From NCBI GenBank assembly GCA_013151555.1, contig JAADIA010000058.1, positions 1 through 10,574 on the forward strand: 10,574 nucleotides of DNA, in the 5' to 3' direction. This stretch comes from Nitrospirota bacterium (GTDB lineage Bacteria; NPL-UPA2; JAADIA01). Both the position numbers and the translations under genes were made by a program. The notes below the pieces were generated by a model that worked only from the letters and a program-made list of their open reading frames with translations, ran no database searches and was not told where the DNA came from. How positions within the stretch are numbered: the first letter of the stretch is position 1; each line of letters begins with the position of its first letter. Positions 1 through 10,574 of the stretch are shown here, piece after piece.

Positions 1-104
<104 letters not shown>

Positions 105-3739: not shown

Positions 3740-4495
3740 CTATATCCCTAACTTTTCCACTATCCCTTTTACGGCTTTGACCGCCGTTGACTCAGCCGGG
3801 AGTTCGACAAGCGGCTTCCCTTCTCCGTCATACTCATAGATGAGCTCATCTTCAGGAATAACTCCCGCGAGTCCTATCCCGACCTTTTCAAGGTGAGAAG
3901 ACAAGATAGAACTGCTTTCAGGTTTGGCCCGATTGAGAACAAGAAATTGTTTACCTACGGAAATTTTTAAGTTGGACACCATCTGGTGGATTCTTTGCAC
4001 CGTTTTCAACCCTCGCACCGTAGGATCGGAAACAATGAGAAGAAAATCAACGTCGCGGGTCGTCTTCCGGCTGAGATGTTCCAAACCTGCTTCATTATCC
4101 ATAATAAGGTAAGGGTAACGGGAAGATATCTTATCGATAATGGAACGCAAGAGATTATTCGTATAGCAATAACATCCCGGTCCTTCCGGACGACCCATGC
4201 TCAGAAGGTCCATCCCCGAAGACTCAATCAGAGCCCTTTCTATCTTTAAATTGAGATAGTCGGTCTTAGCCATACCGGCAGGGAGATTATCTTTATTCCG
4301 AAGCATCTCTTCGCAGATATCTCCTACGGTATCTTCGATTTCCAAACCCAAAGCATCTCCCAAGTTAGCATTGGGATCGGCATCCACCGCCAGAATGGGT
4401 TTTTTGTTTTCCCCAAGCAGATAACGGATGAGCAGAGAAGAGAAAGTAGTTTTCCCCGTTCCTCCTTTGCCGGCTACAGCAACACTTAAACTCAT
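3740..4495 (-). CDS. cooC: CooC-type nickel-insertion ATPase (carbon monoxide dehydrogenase maturation factor)
   Basis: CooC is a cytoplasmic, MinD-like P-loop ATPase that dimerises and delivers nickel to the C-cluster of anaerobic CO dehydrogenase. The 251-residue length fits the family. The deviant Walker A GKGGTGKTT is at residues 9-17, the switch-like VDADPN around 37-42, and the family motif GPGCYCYTNNLLR at 105-117. The last supplies Cys108 and Cys110, the CxC pair that binds nickel or zinc at the dimer interface. MDNEAGLEHLSR (132-143) is also characteristic. The ATG at 4495 follows GGGAGGA at good spacing. It is flanked by repeats, and no CO dehydrogenase or acetyl-CoA synthase gene is in the window, so it is an orphan here. 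It implies a nickel CO dehydrogenase elsewhere. A role for a related but different metalloenzyme is less likely given the CxC motif. Confidence 0.9.
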   Translation of the reverse strand: MSLSVAVAGKGGTGKTTFSSLLIRYLLGENKKPILAVDADPNANLGDALGLEIEDTVGDICEEMLRNKDNLPAGMAKTDYLNLKIERALIESSGMDLLSMGRPEGPGCYCYTNNLLRSIIDKISSRYPYLIMDNEAGLEHLSRKTTRDVDFLLIVSDPTVRGLKTVQRIHQMVSNLKISVGKQFLVLNRAKPESSSILSSHLEKVGIGLAGVIPEDELIYEYDGEGKPLVELPAESTAVKAVKGIVEKLGI

Positions 4496-6360: not shown

Positions 6361-6429
6361 ATGGCGAAAGGGAAGGAAAAACTTCCCCGGGTTAAGAAAG
6401 AAATTAACAACCCCTACCGGCATTGGTAG
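6361..6429 (+). CDS. Possible 22-residue basic peptide ORF, doubtful
   Basis: An ATG preceded by AAGGAACAAAGGG opens a 22-codon frame, MAKGKEKLPRVKKEINNPYR plus two residues, rich in lysine and arginine. It lies in the divergent gap between the cyclophilin gene and the nuoE-like gene. There is no recognised family, and a random ORF of this size is common. It is recorded because of the acceptable ribosome binding site; nothing else supports it. Confidence 0.15.
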   Translation: MAKGKEKLPRVKKEINNPYRHW

Positions 6430-6626: not shown

Positions 6627-7070
6627 GTGGAAGAACGTCTGAAAACAATTTTTTTATCTTACCACGGTAAAAGGGACGAACTAATTCCGATTCTCCAGCA
6701 GGTTCAGGAAGAGTTTGGCTACCTTCCCGAGCAAACTATGCTCGAGGTAGCCCGGTTTACCGGTGTGCCCGAAAGCCGGGTATATGCCGTGACTACATTC
6801 TACACCCAGTTCCGGTTTACTCCCATAGGGAGAAACCATGTGATAGTATGCCGGGGAACTTCCTGCCATGTCCGGGGGGCACCGCGGATACTGGAGGAGA
6901 TAGAAAAGCAACTGGGTATAAAAGAGGGAGAAACCACCTCCGACCGGGAATATTCTCTGGAAACCGTGGCTTGTATCGGAGCCTGTGGCTTATCCCCTTG
7001 TATTATGATAAACAAAAAGGTCAAAGCTAAAATGACACCTAAAAGGGTAGCAGAACTTTTTAAAGTATAA
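6627..7070 (+). CDS. NuoE-like [2Fe-2S] thioredoxin-fold subunit of an NAD(H) oxidoreductase
   Basis: NuoE/HydC-type subunits carry one [2Fe-2S] cluster and pair with NuoF in complex I, bifurcating hydrogenases and NAD-dependent formate dehydrogenases. The four cluster cysteines are present as C-x4-C (Cys75, Cys80 in VCRGTSC) and C-x3-C (Cys116, Cys120 in CIGAC). The helical N-terminus ELIPILQQVQEEFGYLP (18-34) and VYAVTTFYTQF (52-62) are strongly typical. I start at GTG 6627 (GAGAG five bases upstream), giving 147 residues. The frame stays open to 6423 and a 215-residue form is possible, but those first 68 codons do not look like the family. The nuoF-gltD fusion follows after 118 bases and is its presumed partner. 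The spacing is wider than usual for such a pair. Confidence 0.88.
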   Translation: MEERLKTIFLSYHGKRDELIPILQQVQEEFGYLPEQTMLEVARFTGVPESRVYAVTTFYTQFRFTPIGRNHVIVCRGTSCHVRGAPRILEEIEKQLGIKEGETTSDREYSLETVACIGACGLSPCIMINKKVKAKMTPKRVAELFKV

Positions 7071-7085
7071 CGCCTAAGCGTTTTT
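7069..7085 (+). terminator. Weak hairpin with short T run after nuoE
   Basis: The nuoE stop codon runs into AACGC, a CTAA loop and GCGTT, with a run of five T (7081-7085). The 5-bp stem is short, so at most partial termination or a processing site between nuoE and the fusion gene is likely. Confidence 0.25.
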
Positions 7086-7188
7086 ACGCCTACCTTCTTA
7101 TACTTCCAGGGGTTATCAGGAAAAGGAATTCCCCGCAAAAAGAAATGAGAAGCAAGGCGACGAATTCTCTTGCGAAAGGTGGTCAAGG

Positions 7189-10100
7189 ATGAGTTTTGAT
7201 GATGTCCGACGTCAGGCAAAAGAAGAATGGAAAGCCTTGCAGGATAGTCAGAGACCGTTGATTCTCGTGGGCACAGCTACCTGCGGCCGCTCTGCCGGAG
7301 CGGCAGAAGTTCTGGAGACCTTTCAACAGGAGTTAGAAAACCGCAATCTCAACGGCCGGACCATGGAAGTAGGCTGTTTGGGACTGTGTTATGCCGAACC
7401 GGTAGTCTGTATCATCAAACCGTCCCGTCCGGGCATCTGCTACGGCAACGTCACTCCCGAAAAAGCAAAGGAACTCCTTGAAAGTTATCTTGTCAACGAT
7501 GACCCCCGGCCGGATTATGCCCTGGGCACCATCGGAGACGGAAACATTGCCGGAATCCCCGATCTTTTCCAAACCCCCGTGCTCAAACCTCAGGTAAGAA
7601 GGACCCTGCGTAACTGCGGTTTTATCGATCCCGCAAATGCAAAGCATTACCTCGCTCATAACGGTTACAACGGCTTCCTAAAAGCACTCCGGATGAGTCC
7701 GGAACAGATAATTGCGGAAATAAAAAAAGCCGGCCTGAGAGGACGAGGTGGAGCCGGTTTTCCCACCTGGCGAAAATGGCAATTCTGCCGGGAGGCAAAA
7801 GGCGAAGAGAAATATCTTATATGCAATGCCGATGAAGGTGACCCCGGCGCTTTCATGAACAGGTCCCTCATCGAGGGTGACCCGCATTCCCTTTTAGAAG
7901 GAATGCTCATCGCCGGCTATGCCATCGGAGCCAGGGAAGGCTATATCTATTGCCGGGCGGAATATCCCCTGGCCCTGGAAAGATTACAGACAGCTCTCCG
8001 GCAGGCGGAAGAATACGGACTGCTGGGTGAAAATATATTAGAATCAGGATTCGGTTTTCAGATAAAAGTGAAGGAAGGAGCCGGAGCTTTTGTCTGTGGC
8101 GAGGAGACAGCCTTAATTGCTTCTATCGAGGGAAACCGGGGAATGCCCCGCCCCCGTCCACCCTTCCCCGCCGTCTCGGGACTATGGAAAAAACCCACTA
8201 TTATCAATAACGTAGAAACGCTGGCTTGTGTAACCCTTATTCTGCAGAACGGAGCCGGCTGGTTTACTCAATACGGTACCGAAAAGAGCAAAGGCACAAA
8301 AACCTTTGCCCTGGTAGGCAAGGTGAACCGGACCGGGCTTGTGGAAGTACCCCTGGGCATTACCTTGAGACAGATGATCTATGAAATAGGCGGAGGGATT
8401 CCTGAAAACAAACGCTTGAAGGCCGTGCAAACAGGTGGCCCTTCAGGGGGATGTATTCCTCACAACCTCCTGGATATCCCGGTAGATTACGATTCGCTTA
8501 AAGCAGCCGGGACCATCATGGGTTCGGGCGGTATGGTGGTAATGGATGAGAACACCTGTATGGTGGATTTCGCCCGCTACTTCCTCGACTTTGCCCAACA
8601 GGAATCTTGCGGTGAATGCGTCCCCTGCCGGCTGGGCACAAAGCAGCTGTTGGAAATTCTGGAAGACATAACCCGGGGAAAGGGTAAGCCGGAAGATATC
8701 GACCTCCTCGTGGAACTGGCCGAAGCCATTAAAATGGGTGCCCTTTGCGGCCTGGGACAGACTGCTCCCAACCCGGTGCTGACTACCATTCGCTACTTCC
8801 GCGACGAATACGAAGCGCATCTGAAATACAAGCGCTGCCCGGCCGTCGTATGCAAGGAAATAATCTCCTCACCGTGTCAACACGTCTGCCCCATAAGTAC
8901 GGAAGCCGCCACTTATATCTCTCTCATTGCCGAAAAGCGTTTCCGGGAAGCTTTTGCTATCATCCTTAAAGATAACCCCCTGCCCTCCGTTTGCGGCCGG
9001 GTATGTCACCATCCCTGCGAGTCCAAATGTCAGGCCGGGAAATGGGACCGCCCTATTGCCATCAGAGCCCTGAAGAGATTCGTTGCCGACTATGCCCGGC
9101 AAGCGGGAATATCCCTGGAAACGGAACAAAGAACGGGCGGGGAAAAGGTCGCCATAATCGGTTCCGGACCGGCAGGATTAATGGCGGGCAGGCACCTTGC
9201 CAATAAAGGATATGAAGTTACAATTTTCGAGGCTTTAGATGTTCCCGGGGGAGGACTGGCTGTTTATATACCGGAGTTCAGATTGCCCCGGGATATCCTC
9301 AACACCGATATAGAAAATATTAAAAAGGCAGGCGTAAAGATTAAGACCAATACCAGAATCGGGAAAGATATCCCTTTCGATGAGCTTTTAAACAATTACC
9401 GGGCCGTCTTTATCGCTGCCGGGGCTCATAAATCACGGAAACTACACATTCCCAACGAAGATACCGATGGCGTGATGGAAGCTATGGAATTCCTGAAGAA
9501 TGTCAACCTGAAGAAAAAGGTTCTCATAGGCAAAAAGGTGGGAATTATCGGCGGAGGTAATGCGGCTGTAGATGCAGCCCGGGCTGCCGTCAGGCTTAAA
9601 GATTGTGAGAAAGTCCTTATAATTTACCGGCGGACAAGAACGGAGATGCCCGCCTTCGCAGAGGAAATAGAAGCCGCCCTCGAGGAAGGAGTTGAGATTC
9701 AATTCCTCCGGGCGCCAACCAAAATAATAACCGAAAAAGGAAAGATTGCCGGCGTGGAATGCGTAAAAATGGAATTGGGAGAAAGGGACGAAAGCGGCCG
9801 GAGAAGACCCGTCCCCGTTGCCGGTTCGGAGTTCATTATTAACCTGGATACTTTATTAGTCGCCATTGGAGAAGACCCCGACCTTCGTTTTCTCGGCCAG
9901 GGGCGAGACATAGAAGTTTCTAAAAGAGGGACTATCGCCGTAGACCCGGAGACTCTGGTCACAAATGTAGCAGGAGTTTTCGCCGGCGGAGATATCGTCA
10001 CCGGTCCCAACACCGTAATAGAGGCCATGTCCGCCGGAAAAATCGCTGCGGAAGGAATCGACAAATACATCCGGGGAGAAAGTTTAGCCAGAGAATACAA

Positions 10101-10332
10101 ATTAACCAGACCCTCGATGTATCTACCTCCGGTAGAATTAACCGAACAAGAGATAGAAGAAGCCCGGAGACCGGCAATCCCGTCTTTACCGGTAAGCGAA
10201 AGAAAAAATAACTTTAAAGAAGTCGATCTAAATATAACGGAAGAAACAGCCATAAAAGAAGCCCGACGTTGTCTCAGATGCGATTTAGAGACCGAAGACG
10301 GGAAAAAGCAATTAGAGCAGAAACAAAGATAG
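7189..10332 (+). CDS. NuoF-GltD fusion: NAD(H)-FMN subunit joined to an FAD-NADP(H) reductase
   Basis: This is one intact frame of 1047 residues with RBS AGGTGG before the ATG. Residues about 20-95 form a thioredoxin-like [2Fe-2S] domain (Cys32, Cys63, Cys67). The NuoF core follows: FMN/NAD-binding GLRGRGGAGFPTW (182-194), NADEGDPGAF (213-222), GAFVCGEETALI (299-310), NNVETLA (340-346), and the N3-type [4Fe-4S] ligands Cys474, 477, 480 and 520. From about 548 a GltD/NfnB-like half begins. It has Cys550, 555, 563, 567, 602, 606, 610 and 614 for two predicted [4Fe-4S] clusters, FAD motif GSGPAG (658-663), NADP(H) motif GGGNAAVDAA (788-797), YRRTRTEMPA (813-822), a C-terminal AGGDIVTGPNTVIEAM (932-947) and RRCLRC (1026-1031). 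Inferred role: cytoplasmic NADH/NADP(H) electron transfer with NuoE, possibly ferredoxin-linked bifurcation. No hydrogenase or formate dehydrogenase catalytic subunit follows. Confidence 0.93.
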   Translation: MSFDDVRRQAKEEWKALQDSQRPLILVGTATCGRSAGAAEVLETFQQELENRNLNGRTMEVGCLGLCYAEPVVCIIKPSRPGICYGNVTPEKAKELLESYLVNDDPRPDYALGTIGDGNIAGIPDLFQTPVLKPQVRRTLRNCGFIDPANAKHYLAHNGYNGFLKALRMSPEQIIAEIKKAGLRGRGGAGFPTWRKWQFCREAKGEEKYLICNADEGDPGAFMNRSLIEGDPHSLLEGMLIAGYAIGAREGYIYCRAEYPLALERLQTALRQAEEYGLLGENILESGFGFQIKVKEGAGAFVCGEETALIASIEGNRGMPRPRPPFPAVSGLWKKPTIINNVETLACVTLILQNGAGWFTQYGTEKSKGTKTFALVGKVNRTGLVEVPLGITLRQMIYEIGGGIPENKRLKAVQTGGPSGGCIPHNLLDIPVDYDSLKAAGTIMGSGGMVVMDENTCMVDFARYFLDFAQQESCGECVPCRLGTKQLLEILEDITRGKGKPEDIDLLVELAEAIKMGALCGLGQTAPNPVLTTIRYFRDEYEAHLKYKRCPAVVCKEIISSPCQHVCPISTEAATYISLIAEKRFREAFAIILKDNPLPSVCGRVCHHPCESKCQAGKWDRPIAIRALKRFVADYARQAGISLETEQRTGGEKVAIIGSGPAGLMAGRHLANKGYEVTIFEALDVPGGGLAVYIPEFRLPRDILNTDIENIKKAGVKIKTNTRIGKDIPFDELLNNYRAVFIAAGAHKSRKLHIPNEDTDGVMEAMEFLKNVNLKKKVLIGKKVGIIGGGNAAVDAARAAVRLKDCEKVLIIYRRTRTEMPAFAEEIEAALEEGVEIQFLRAPTKIITEKGKIAGVECVKMELGERDESGRRRPVPVAGSEFIINLDTLLVAIGEDPDLRFLGQGRDIEVSKRGTIAVDPETLVTNVAGVFAGGDIVTGPNTVIEAMSAGKIAAEGIDKYIRGESLAREYKLTRPSMYLPPVELTEQEIEEARRPAIPSLPVSERKNNFKEVDLNITEETAIKEARRCLRCDLETEDGKKQLEQKQR

Positions 10333-10351
10333 TAGTGGATATACTCAAATT

Positions 10352-10379
10352 CGAAATACGAAACTCGAAATACGAAACA
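10352..10379. repeat. 14-base tandem repeat ahead of the four-helix-bundle gene
   Basis: Two adjacent units, CGAAATACGAAACT (10352-10365) and CGAAATACGAAACA (10366-10379), differ only in the last base. TTCGAA words flank them on both sides (10350-10355 and 10382-10387). It sits between the stop of the fusion gene and the next start codon. In my experience such CGAAA-rich repeats often precede genes for four-helix-bundle proteins in environmental genomes. No terminator is visible in this gap. Confidence 0.75.
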
Positions 10380-10386
10380 AATTCGA

Positions 10387-10574
10387 ATGACCAAAAAACA
10401 AAATTCAAAACGATATGACTTGGAAGACCGCACCCTGAAATTTGCAAGGGGGGTGAGAACTTTTGTAAGAAAGTTGCCCAAGACAACGGGGAATATTGAA
10501 GACGGGAAACAAGTTATTAGGAGTTCAGGATCAGTAGGAGCGAACTATATTGAAGCTAACGAGTCCCTAAGCAA
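10387..10574 (+). CDS. Four-helix-bundle protein (23S rRNA intervening-sequence type), truncated by window edge
   Basis: The first 62 codons are present. The translation contains YDLEDRTLKFARGVRTFV (10-27), then IEDGKQVIRSSGSVGANYIE (43-62 region) and EANES. These are hallmarks of the S23/IVP family of about 120-residue helical proteins, first seen encoded inside spirochaete 23S rRNA intervening sequences but most often free-standing. Members form pentameric helical bundles, and their cellular role is unsettled. The ATG at 10387 has no clear Shine-Dalgarno sequence and directly follows the 14-base tandem repeat. No rRNA sequence is nearby. The gene is unrelated in function to the redox genes and marks the end of the two-gene redox unit. 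Confidence 0.9.
   Translation, partial: MTKKQNSKRYDLEDRTLKFARGVRTFVRKLPKTTGNIEDGKQVIRSSGSVGANYIEANESLS

Follow-up and report, generated by a model that had tools for sequence, protein, structure and literature searches.

A NuoE and NuoF-GltD fusion pair in a Nitrospirota genome, a candidate NAD(P)H module of a formate dehydrogenase

Contig JAADIA010000058.1 of a Nitrospirota bacterium (contig C5; its entire 10,574 bp are called the window here) carries near its 3' end two genes, one for a NuoE-like subunit and one for a protein of 1047 residues in which a NuoF-like half is joined to a GltD/NfnB-like half. The locus raises the question of which electron partner, if any, completes this pair. 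A preliminary description proposed a transhydrogenase coupling NADH, NADP(H) and ferredoxin. With moderate confidence, we instead assign to the pair the role of NAD(P)H module in a cytoplasmic formate dehydrogenase, the catalytic subunit of which (FdhA) is encoded, truncated, at the end of another contig (C86). This assignment is drawn from sequence comparison, because a sister NuoF/NuoE pair in another genome precedes FdhA and a matching FdhA fragment is found unpaired in the window's genome. The genome comprises 1.81 Mb in 99 contigs (estimated 93.7% complete), all of which were read for the conclusions about partner genes given below.

Both genes are intact, as had been described from the letters alone, and the open reading frames (ORFs), the Pfam matches and a fold model are in agreement on this point (Table 1). 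The smaller protein matches 2Fe-2S_thioredx (PF01257, E 6e-50) and displays all four cysteines of a C-x4-C ... C-x3-C pattern (CRGTSC and CIGAC), corresponding to the BfuC component of the bifurcating (Bfu) enzymes, a NuoE-like subunit with [2Fe-2S] cluster C1 (PMC9304861). Its GTG start at 6627 agrees with homologues; the ORF could open at 6423 (TTG). The larger protein is not a chance ORF, since full-length homologues with 45-56% identity are present in dozens of genomes. It contains thioredoxin-like [2Fe-2S], Complex1_51K, SLBB, NADH_4Fe-4S, Fer4_20 and Pyr_redox_2 domains, and its fold is confidently predicted by an AlphaFold2 model made with 39 natural homologues (pLDDT 87.6, pTM 0.83).

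Table 1. Positions of the features discussed in the text, numbered from the first letter of the window.
Feature	Position	Strand	Comment
NuoE/HydC/StnA-like (BfuC) subunit, ~147 aa	6627..7070	+	one thioredoxin-fold [2Fe-2S] cluster predicted
NuoF-GltD fusion, 1047 aa	7189..10332	+	single uninterrupted ORF of 1047 codons
N-terminal thioredoxin-like domain, HydB/StnB type	7255..7533	+	E 2e-5, Pfam; alignment to 8oh5_B
NuoF core	7636..8823	+	FMN/NADH site (Complex1_51K), SLBB, [4Fe-4S] B1
B2/zinc-site ligand stretch	8557..8853	+	C457, T495, H544, C550, C555
Fer4_20 domain of GltD	8857..9108	+	two predicted [4Fe-4S] clusters; replaces the HydB/StnB ferredoxin domain
GltD/NfnB-like FAD and NADP(H) domain	9139..10086	+	Pfam and alignment
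C-terminal EARRCLRCD motif	10201..10284	+	supplies C1028 and C1031 to the Fer4_20 clusters
Dispersed repeat	10347..10402		just 3' of the fusion; copies on >20 other contigs of the genome
5' part of a gene truncated at the contig end	10387..10574	+	first 62 codons; no Pfam family

The NuoF half resembles HydB and StnB throughout (alignment to 8oh5_B, E 1e-211), and the model superposes on 9bov_B with a Z-score of 57.7 and a root-mean-square deviation (rmsd) of 1.7 over 526 residues. The thioredoxin-like domain, which contains three cysteines as in StnB (C32, C63 and C67) rather than four, corresponds to the B5 domain of the Bfu proteins at the domain level, the cluster itself being predicted. 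The FMN/NADH domain (PF01512) is accompanied by a B1 site (PF10589) with its four cysteines in place (C474, C477, C480 and C520). Residues C457, T495, H544, C550 and C555 align with C438, C476/T, H525, C531 and C536 of NiFe-HydB (7t2r_B; PMC9304861), giving the fusion the complete Cys, Cys/Thr, His, Cys, Cys set of B2 ligands, and C457, H544, C550 and C555 are invariant in 39 fusions. These ligands mark bifurcating BfuB proteins, as opposed to non-bifurcating homologues without them, in which the "bifurcator" His is reported to be missing (PMC9304861); other reports assign a zinc to the B2 position (PMC10482914). With all B1 and B2/zinc ligands kept, the earlier proposal of a bifurcating-type NuoEF core tied in one chain to an NADP(H) domain of NfnB/StnC type is upheld.

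The ferredoxin-type domain that ends a BfuB protein is missing. No Pfam match to a Fer4 dicluster (clusters B3 and B4; IPR017896) was found in the fusion, which for this reason is not a BfuB by the published definition. The match to StnB (8oh5_B) ends at 530/584 and the Fer4_20 domain of GltD begins directly after. In the model, residues 23-626 align with residues 1-580 of 8oh5_B (554 residues, rmsd 2.1), which suggests that Fer4_20 sits at least partly where the ferredoxin domain normally lies. Its predicted clusters would be held by C563, C567, C602, C606, C610 and C614 together with C1028 and C1031, the last two lying in a motif that is C-terminal here but N-terminal in NfnB. Within the GltD half, K629 aligns with Lys170 of StnC, a cluster ligand that is replaced by Glu in NfnB, and R698 aligns with R239 of StnC; the StnC FAD reportedly does not bifurcate (PMC10482914).

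The nearest solved relatives are the Stn/Nfn-ABC transhydrogenases, in keeping with the kinship to the Sporomusa-type Nfn that had been suggested for this locus. StnABC of Sporomusa ovata (8oh5) and the Stn/Nfn-Bfu enzymes of C. saccharolyticus (9bov) and T. sibiricus (9n5u) have in common with the window the NuoE plus NuoF-like core, the thioredoxin domain, the B1 and B2/zinc ligands and the StnC-type Lys at the FAD-proximal cluster. They differ in placing GltD within a separate NuoG-like chain with an N-terminal Fer2 domain (StnC), a protein that the window does not encode. Here one chain stands in place of two, without the ferredoxin domain of StnB and without the Fer2/NuoG-like arms, such that GltD joins the NuoF C-terminus directly. 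NfnAB shares the GltD/NfnB-like NADP(H)-FAD domain (~45% identity), but in the window protein the proximal cluster has a Lys where NfnB has a Glu, and the NADH site is the NuoF FMN. No NfnA/PyrK-like partner (FAD plus [2Fe-2S]) is present in the window, and the PF10418 matches of the genome lie elsewhere, one of them beside its own NfnB-like gene.

A precedent by analogy for the wiring from B1 to GltD is offered by the beta subunit (SfrB2/FdhB) of the NADP-dependent formate dehydrogenase of M. thermoacetica, which is known to use NADP(H) (PMC5736913, PMC13040438). There, as in the window fusion, GltD follows NADH_4Fe-4S (B1), and the subunit sits beside a NuoG-like Fe-S subunit and FdhA. An M. 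thermoacetica protein of this NADH_4Fe-4S plus GltD type, beside a NuoG-like start, is 41% identical to window residues 442-1031. However, SfrB2/FdhB is without NuoE, the thioredoxin domain and the FMN domain, and the B2/zinc ligands are not conserved in it. Fusions within HydABC-like operons (Moorella, L063; Desulfobacterales, L050 and L066), apparently uncharacterised, share both domain order and junction with the window; their GltD halves group with the window GltD whereas their NuoF halves fall in other clades, and a catalytic partner mostly adjoins them. What appears to be new here is a Bfu-like core without a ferredoxin domain and with a covalent NADP(H) module, the Bfu core itself being already known; our literature search, whose coverage left out most subscription papers, found no description of a NuoF-GltD fusion.

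The fusion is mosaic in origin. An unfused BfuB from Phycisphaerae HyVt-337 (locus L092), which keeps its Fer4 dicluster at 561-621, shares 80% identity with the NuoF core, whereas the GltD half is at best 57% identical to other fused GltDs. In the tree, the window NuoF is sister to the L092 protein (support 100/98) among unfused proteins. A single fused NuoF clade including the window was rejected (p-AU 1.5e-5), as was a pairing with the NuoF of L033 (p-AU 5e-4), and for the NuoF half these topology tests reject a single old fusion event inherited by the window. The window GltD groups with fused GltDs at moderate support (78/91), and a placement among the GltDs of StnC proteins was rejected (p-AU 0.007). 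As the simplest history, we infer that the GltD half of a fusion already in existence replaced the ferredoxin domain of an ordinary BfuB. Among 198 genomes related to that of L092, no fused relative exceeds 56% identity. Another fused protein (L079:5872-9063) has a NuoF half that groups with unfused formate dehydrogenase-linked BfuB proteins in a quick tree and is possibly a second mosaic.

The sister locus points to a partner. In L092 the NuoE-BfuB pair, the NuoE of which is 75% identical to that of the window, precedes a gene for an FdhA of 900 aa that contains Fer2, NuoG-type Fe-S and molybdopterin domains. Indeed, the closest relatives of the window NuoE and NuoF half are the unfused NuoE-BfuB-FdhA operons of the Type 1 formate-linked Bfu enzymes (Fdh-Bfu; L092, L040 and L094), the BfuB proteins of which have the ferredoxin domain but not GltD, the reverse of the window fusion. 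It had been noted that no hydrogenase or formate dehydrogenase accompanies the pair. That is correct for the window, itself a complete contig, but elsewhere the genome encodes 258 residues of an FdhA C-terminus, cut by the end of contig C86, followed by FdhD. The candidate parts of an Fdh-Bfu locus are FdhA and FdhD at the C86 end and NuoE and the fusion on C5. The best match of the FdhA fragment is the L092 FdhA (68.5% identity), and the FdhAs that rank next come from the same BfuB clade.

Several features of the genome bear on this association. No second NuoE or NuoF is encoded in it, and an FeFe hydrogenase partner (HydA with its H-cluster domain, as in HydABC) was rejected on the lack of any PF02906 match in the 93.7% complete genome. 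The GC content at third codon positions (GC3) of the FdhA fragment (0.54) is nearer to that of the fusion (0.56-0.57) than to that of most window neighbours (0.46-0.50), lending weak support to a common locus. Neither the C5 end nor the C86 end has a partner in the contig-end comparison and the assembly contains no contigs shorter than 3,030 bp; a missing piece of ~2.1 kb or more would join the two. The genome encodes FTHFS, ACS, AcsC, AcsE and AcsV of the Wood-Ljungdahl pathway, and for this reason a formate-forming or formate-using enzyme is expected. Because C5 stops 242 bp past the stop codon of the fusion, after the repeat and 62 codons of a further gene, the lack of 3' neighbours is a matter of missing data. 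That no partner is seen is more probably due to a formate dehydrogenase severed at the contig break than to a real absence.

Fusions of this kind are widespread, spanning many phyla, and usually accompanied. Full-length examples were found in 5 of 60 sampled genomes and in 34 of the 198 relatives of one planctomycete genome, and a GTDB scan returned 38 fusion loci passing the length filter. The preliminary description had held that a hydrogenase or formate dehydrogenase conserved beside the pair in relatives would speak against a stand-alone enzyme. Such partners are largely there, since a catalytic or NuoG-like protein adjoins 34/48 fused loci, but their identity is not conserved: FeFe HydA in 18 cases, an FdhA-like molybdopterin protein in 6 (L034, L050, L052, L066, L067 and L080), a short Fer2/NuoG-like protein in 9 and a Fer4-rich protein in 1. 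The remaining loci are mostly cut by contig ends. As BfuB must contain IPR017896 under the published definition of the Bfu family (PMC9304861) and this domain is absent from the fusions by Pfam, we infer that NuoF-GltD fusions have been left uncounted by the Bfu census.

The gene orders around individual fusions and related operons are varied. Three Desulfobacterales/delta-type clusters (L066:1668-10727, L067:1901-9404 and L068:3-5573) have the order FdhA - NuoE - NuoF-GltD - metV - metF, with the upstream part of L068 and the metF of L067 lying off contig; here the fused module stands within Wood-Ljungdahl methyl-branch gene clusters. In L050:2898-9030, FdhA is fused to NuoE (972 aa) and the NuoF-GltD fusion follows directly. 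The fusion of L037:3-6653 (genome G029) adjoins complex I genes (NuoA/B/C/D/G-like) in an arrangement that resembles an NADPH-capable dehydrogenase module for complex I, and in L089 a NiFe large subunit adjoins the fusion. An apparently uncharacterised cluster of Moorella thermoacetica DSM 21394 (L063:4928-11100) reads NuoE - ATPase - thioredoxin-like - NuoF-GltD - FeFe HydA. This strain has an unfused BfuB elsewhere in its genome besides the fusion, and the claim that the Moorella HydABC is a characterised fusion was therefore dropped. In a member of the same order as the window's organism (G002, L038:8936-14953), two CooC-like genes and genes of the corrinoid/acetyl-CoA pathway lie after a Stn-like operon of NuoE, BfuB and a short StnC.

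In the complex that we favour, NuoE and the fusion would form a BfuBC-type diaphorase core that exchanges NAD(H) at FMN, while the fused GltD would exchange NADP(H) through its two [4Fe-4S] clusters and FAD. FdhA would connect to cluster B1 through a NuoG-like N-terminus, such that electrons from formate enter at B1 via the FdhA Fe-S arm, reducing NAD+ at FMN and NADP+ at the GltD FAD by way of the Fer4_20 clusters; CO2 reduction would use the same path in reverse. Both the FdhA association and the reaction direction are deduced from the comparisons above. The complex would probably supply or consume formate for the Wood-Ljungdahl pathway, with NADP(H) either replacing ferredoxin in a bifurcating reaction (2 formate + NAD+ + NADP+) or serving as a second outlet. 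That such enzymes bifurcate without ferredoxin, with GltD at the old position of the ferredoxin domain and NADP(H) as the low-potential partner, coupling a mid-potential substrate (formate or H2) to NAD(H) and NADP(H), is a tentative idea that we hold to be possible but rather doubtful.

A number of observations weigh against the formate dehydrogenase assignment. No overlap of contig ends joins C5 physically to C86. The gene 3' of the window fusion is an unrelated, repeat-flanked one; in L092, by contrast, fdhA immediately follows bfuB. The N-terminus of FdhA is missing from the assembly, so that its NuoG-like Fe-S domain is assumed, and two fused loci (L053 and L114) have kilobases of flanking sequence yet no adjacent partner. 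Bifurcation with NADP(H) in place of ferredoxin is, moreover, speculative. Loci L053 and L114 would also suit the transhydrogenase of the preliminary description, a stand-alone, two-subunit and ferredoxin-dependent bifurcating enzyme taking NADH at FMN and NADP(H) at GltD, with either the Fer4_20 clusters or the empty BfuA face at cluster B1 as the docking site for ferredoxin. Its bifurcation-type core is complete, StnABC and the T. sibiricus Nfn-Bfu perform this reaction with homologous parts (PMC10482914, PMC9304861), and BfuA was not detected in the assembled genome, where AcsV is the sole Fer2_4 protein. But the ferredoxin domain, the proposed site of ferredoxin reduction in Stn and Hyd, is missing, and a ferredoxin-coupled enzyme would for that reason need another docking site. 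An NfnAB-like pair (contig C72) is already encoded in the genome, as is an unpaired FdhA matching the sister locus, and a catalytic partner adjoins most fused relatives. The core type proposed earlier stands, while we consider the ferredoxin-coupled enzyme itself unlikely, if still a serious candidate.

A simpler possibility, which we rate as quite unlikely, is a non-bifurcating NADH:NADP+ oxidoreductase in which electrons pass from FMN through B1 and Fer4_20 to FAD with no third substrate. This short path needs nothing more than the contig offers, there being no BfuA on it, and the alignment of K629 with StnC Lys170 rather than the NfnB Glu would fit, given the reportedly non-bifurcating FAD of StnC (PMC10482914). 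All of the B2/zinc-site ligands are nevertheless kept, as opposed to their loss in the non-bifurcating Moorella SfrB-type protein. The fusions of relatives that adjoin FeFe HydA, short Fer2 subunits, complex I genes (L037) or a NiFe large subunit (L089) would instead suit an NAD(P)H module for some other third substrate, such as a NiFe hydrogenase, a complex I-like enzyme or another BfuA, with its genes in sequence that the assembly lacks. With the sister NuoF/NuoE tied to FdhA, and FdhA the only orphan partner seen in the genome, this is highly improbable. An assembly chimera of a BfuB and a GltD gene might be suspected from the different phylogenetic histories of the two halves and the metagenome-type assembly. 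However, the join is in frame and at the same place as in dozens of independent natural fusions, GC3 is alike in both halves (0.56 and 0.57), neither half is found elsewhere in the genome, and overlaps in this assembly are 91 exact bases, which genes this diverged would not share. We regard a chimera as scarcely credible.

The repeat 3' of the fusion, copies of which elsewhere in the genome frequently occur as inverted pairs, is a likely cause of the contig break. The "four-helix-bundle gene" previously reported after the fusion is indeed the start of a further gene, but only 62 of its codons precede the contig end and it has no Pfam family; stretches homologous to it are present on two other contigs, and it is outside the NuoE/fusion system. 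At the opposite end, window positions 1-91 overlap exactly, in inverted orientation, with the start of contig C1, and because of this 91-bp overlap the two contigs are probably neighbours. A CooC/MinD-like ATPase is encoded near the NuoE/fusion module (3740-4495, - strand). Carbon monoxide dehydrogenase (PF03063) has no match in the genome, although ACS, AcsC, AcsE, AcsV and FTHFS are present, and may be located in the missing part.

Bfu enzymes govern the balance of NADH, NADPH, ferredoxin, H2 and formate in anaerobes. If the fusions still bifurcate, then ferredoxin is not obligatory for the mechanism, and the role of clusters B3 and B4 could be tested by comparing fused with unfused enzymes. 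The window gene provides a natural experiment in this respect, having an 80% identical unfused sister that differs mainly in one domain. Ferredoxin-free bifurcation, if true, would mean that a large group of bifurcating enzymes, spread over many phyla, has gone uncounted, a group assembled at least twice through the exchange of a ferredoxin domain for GltD.

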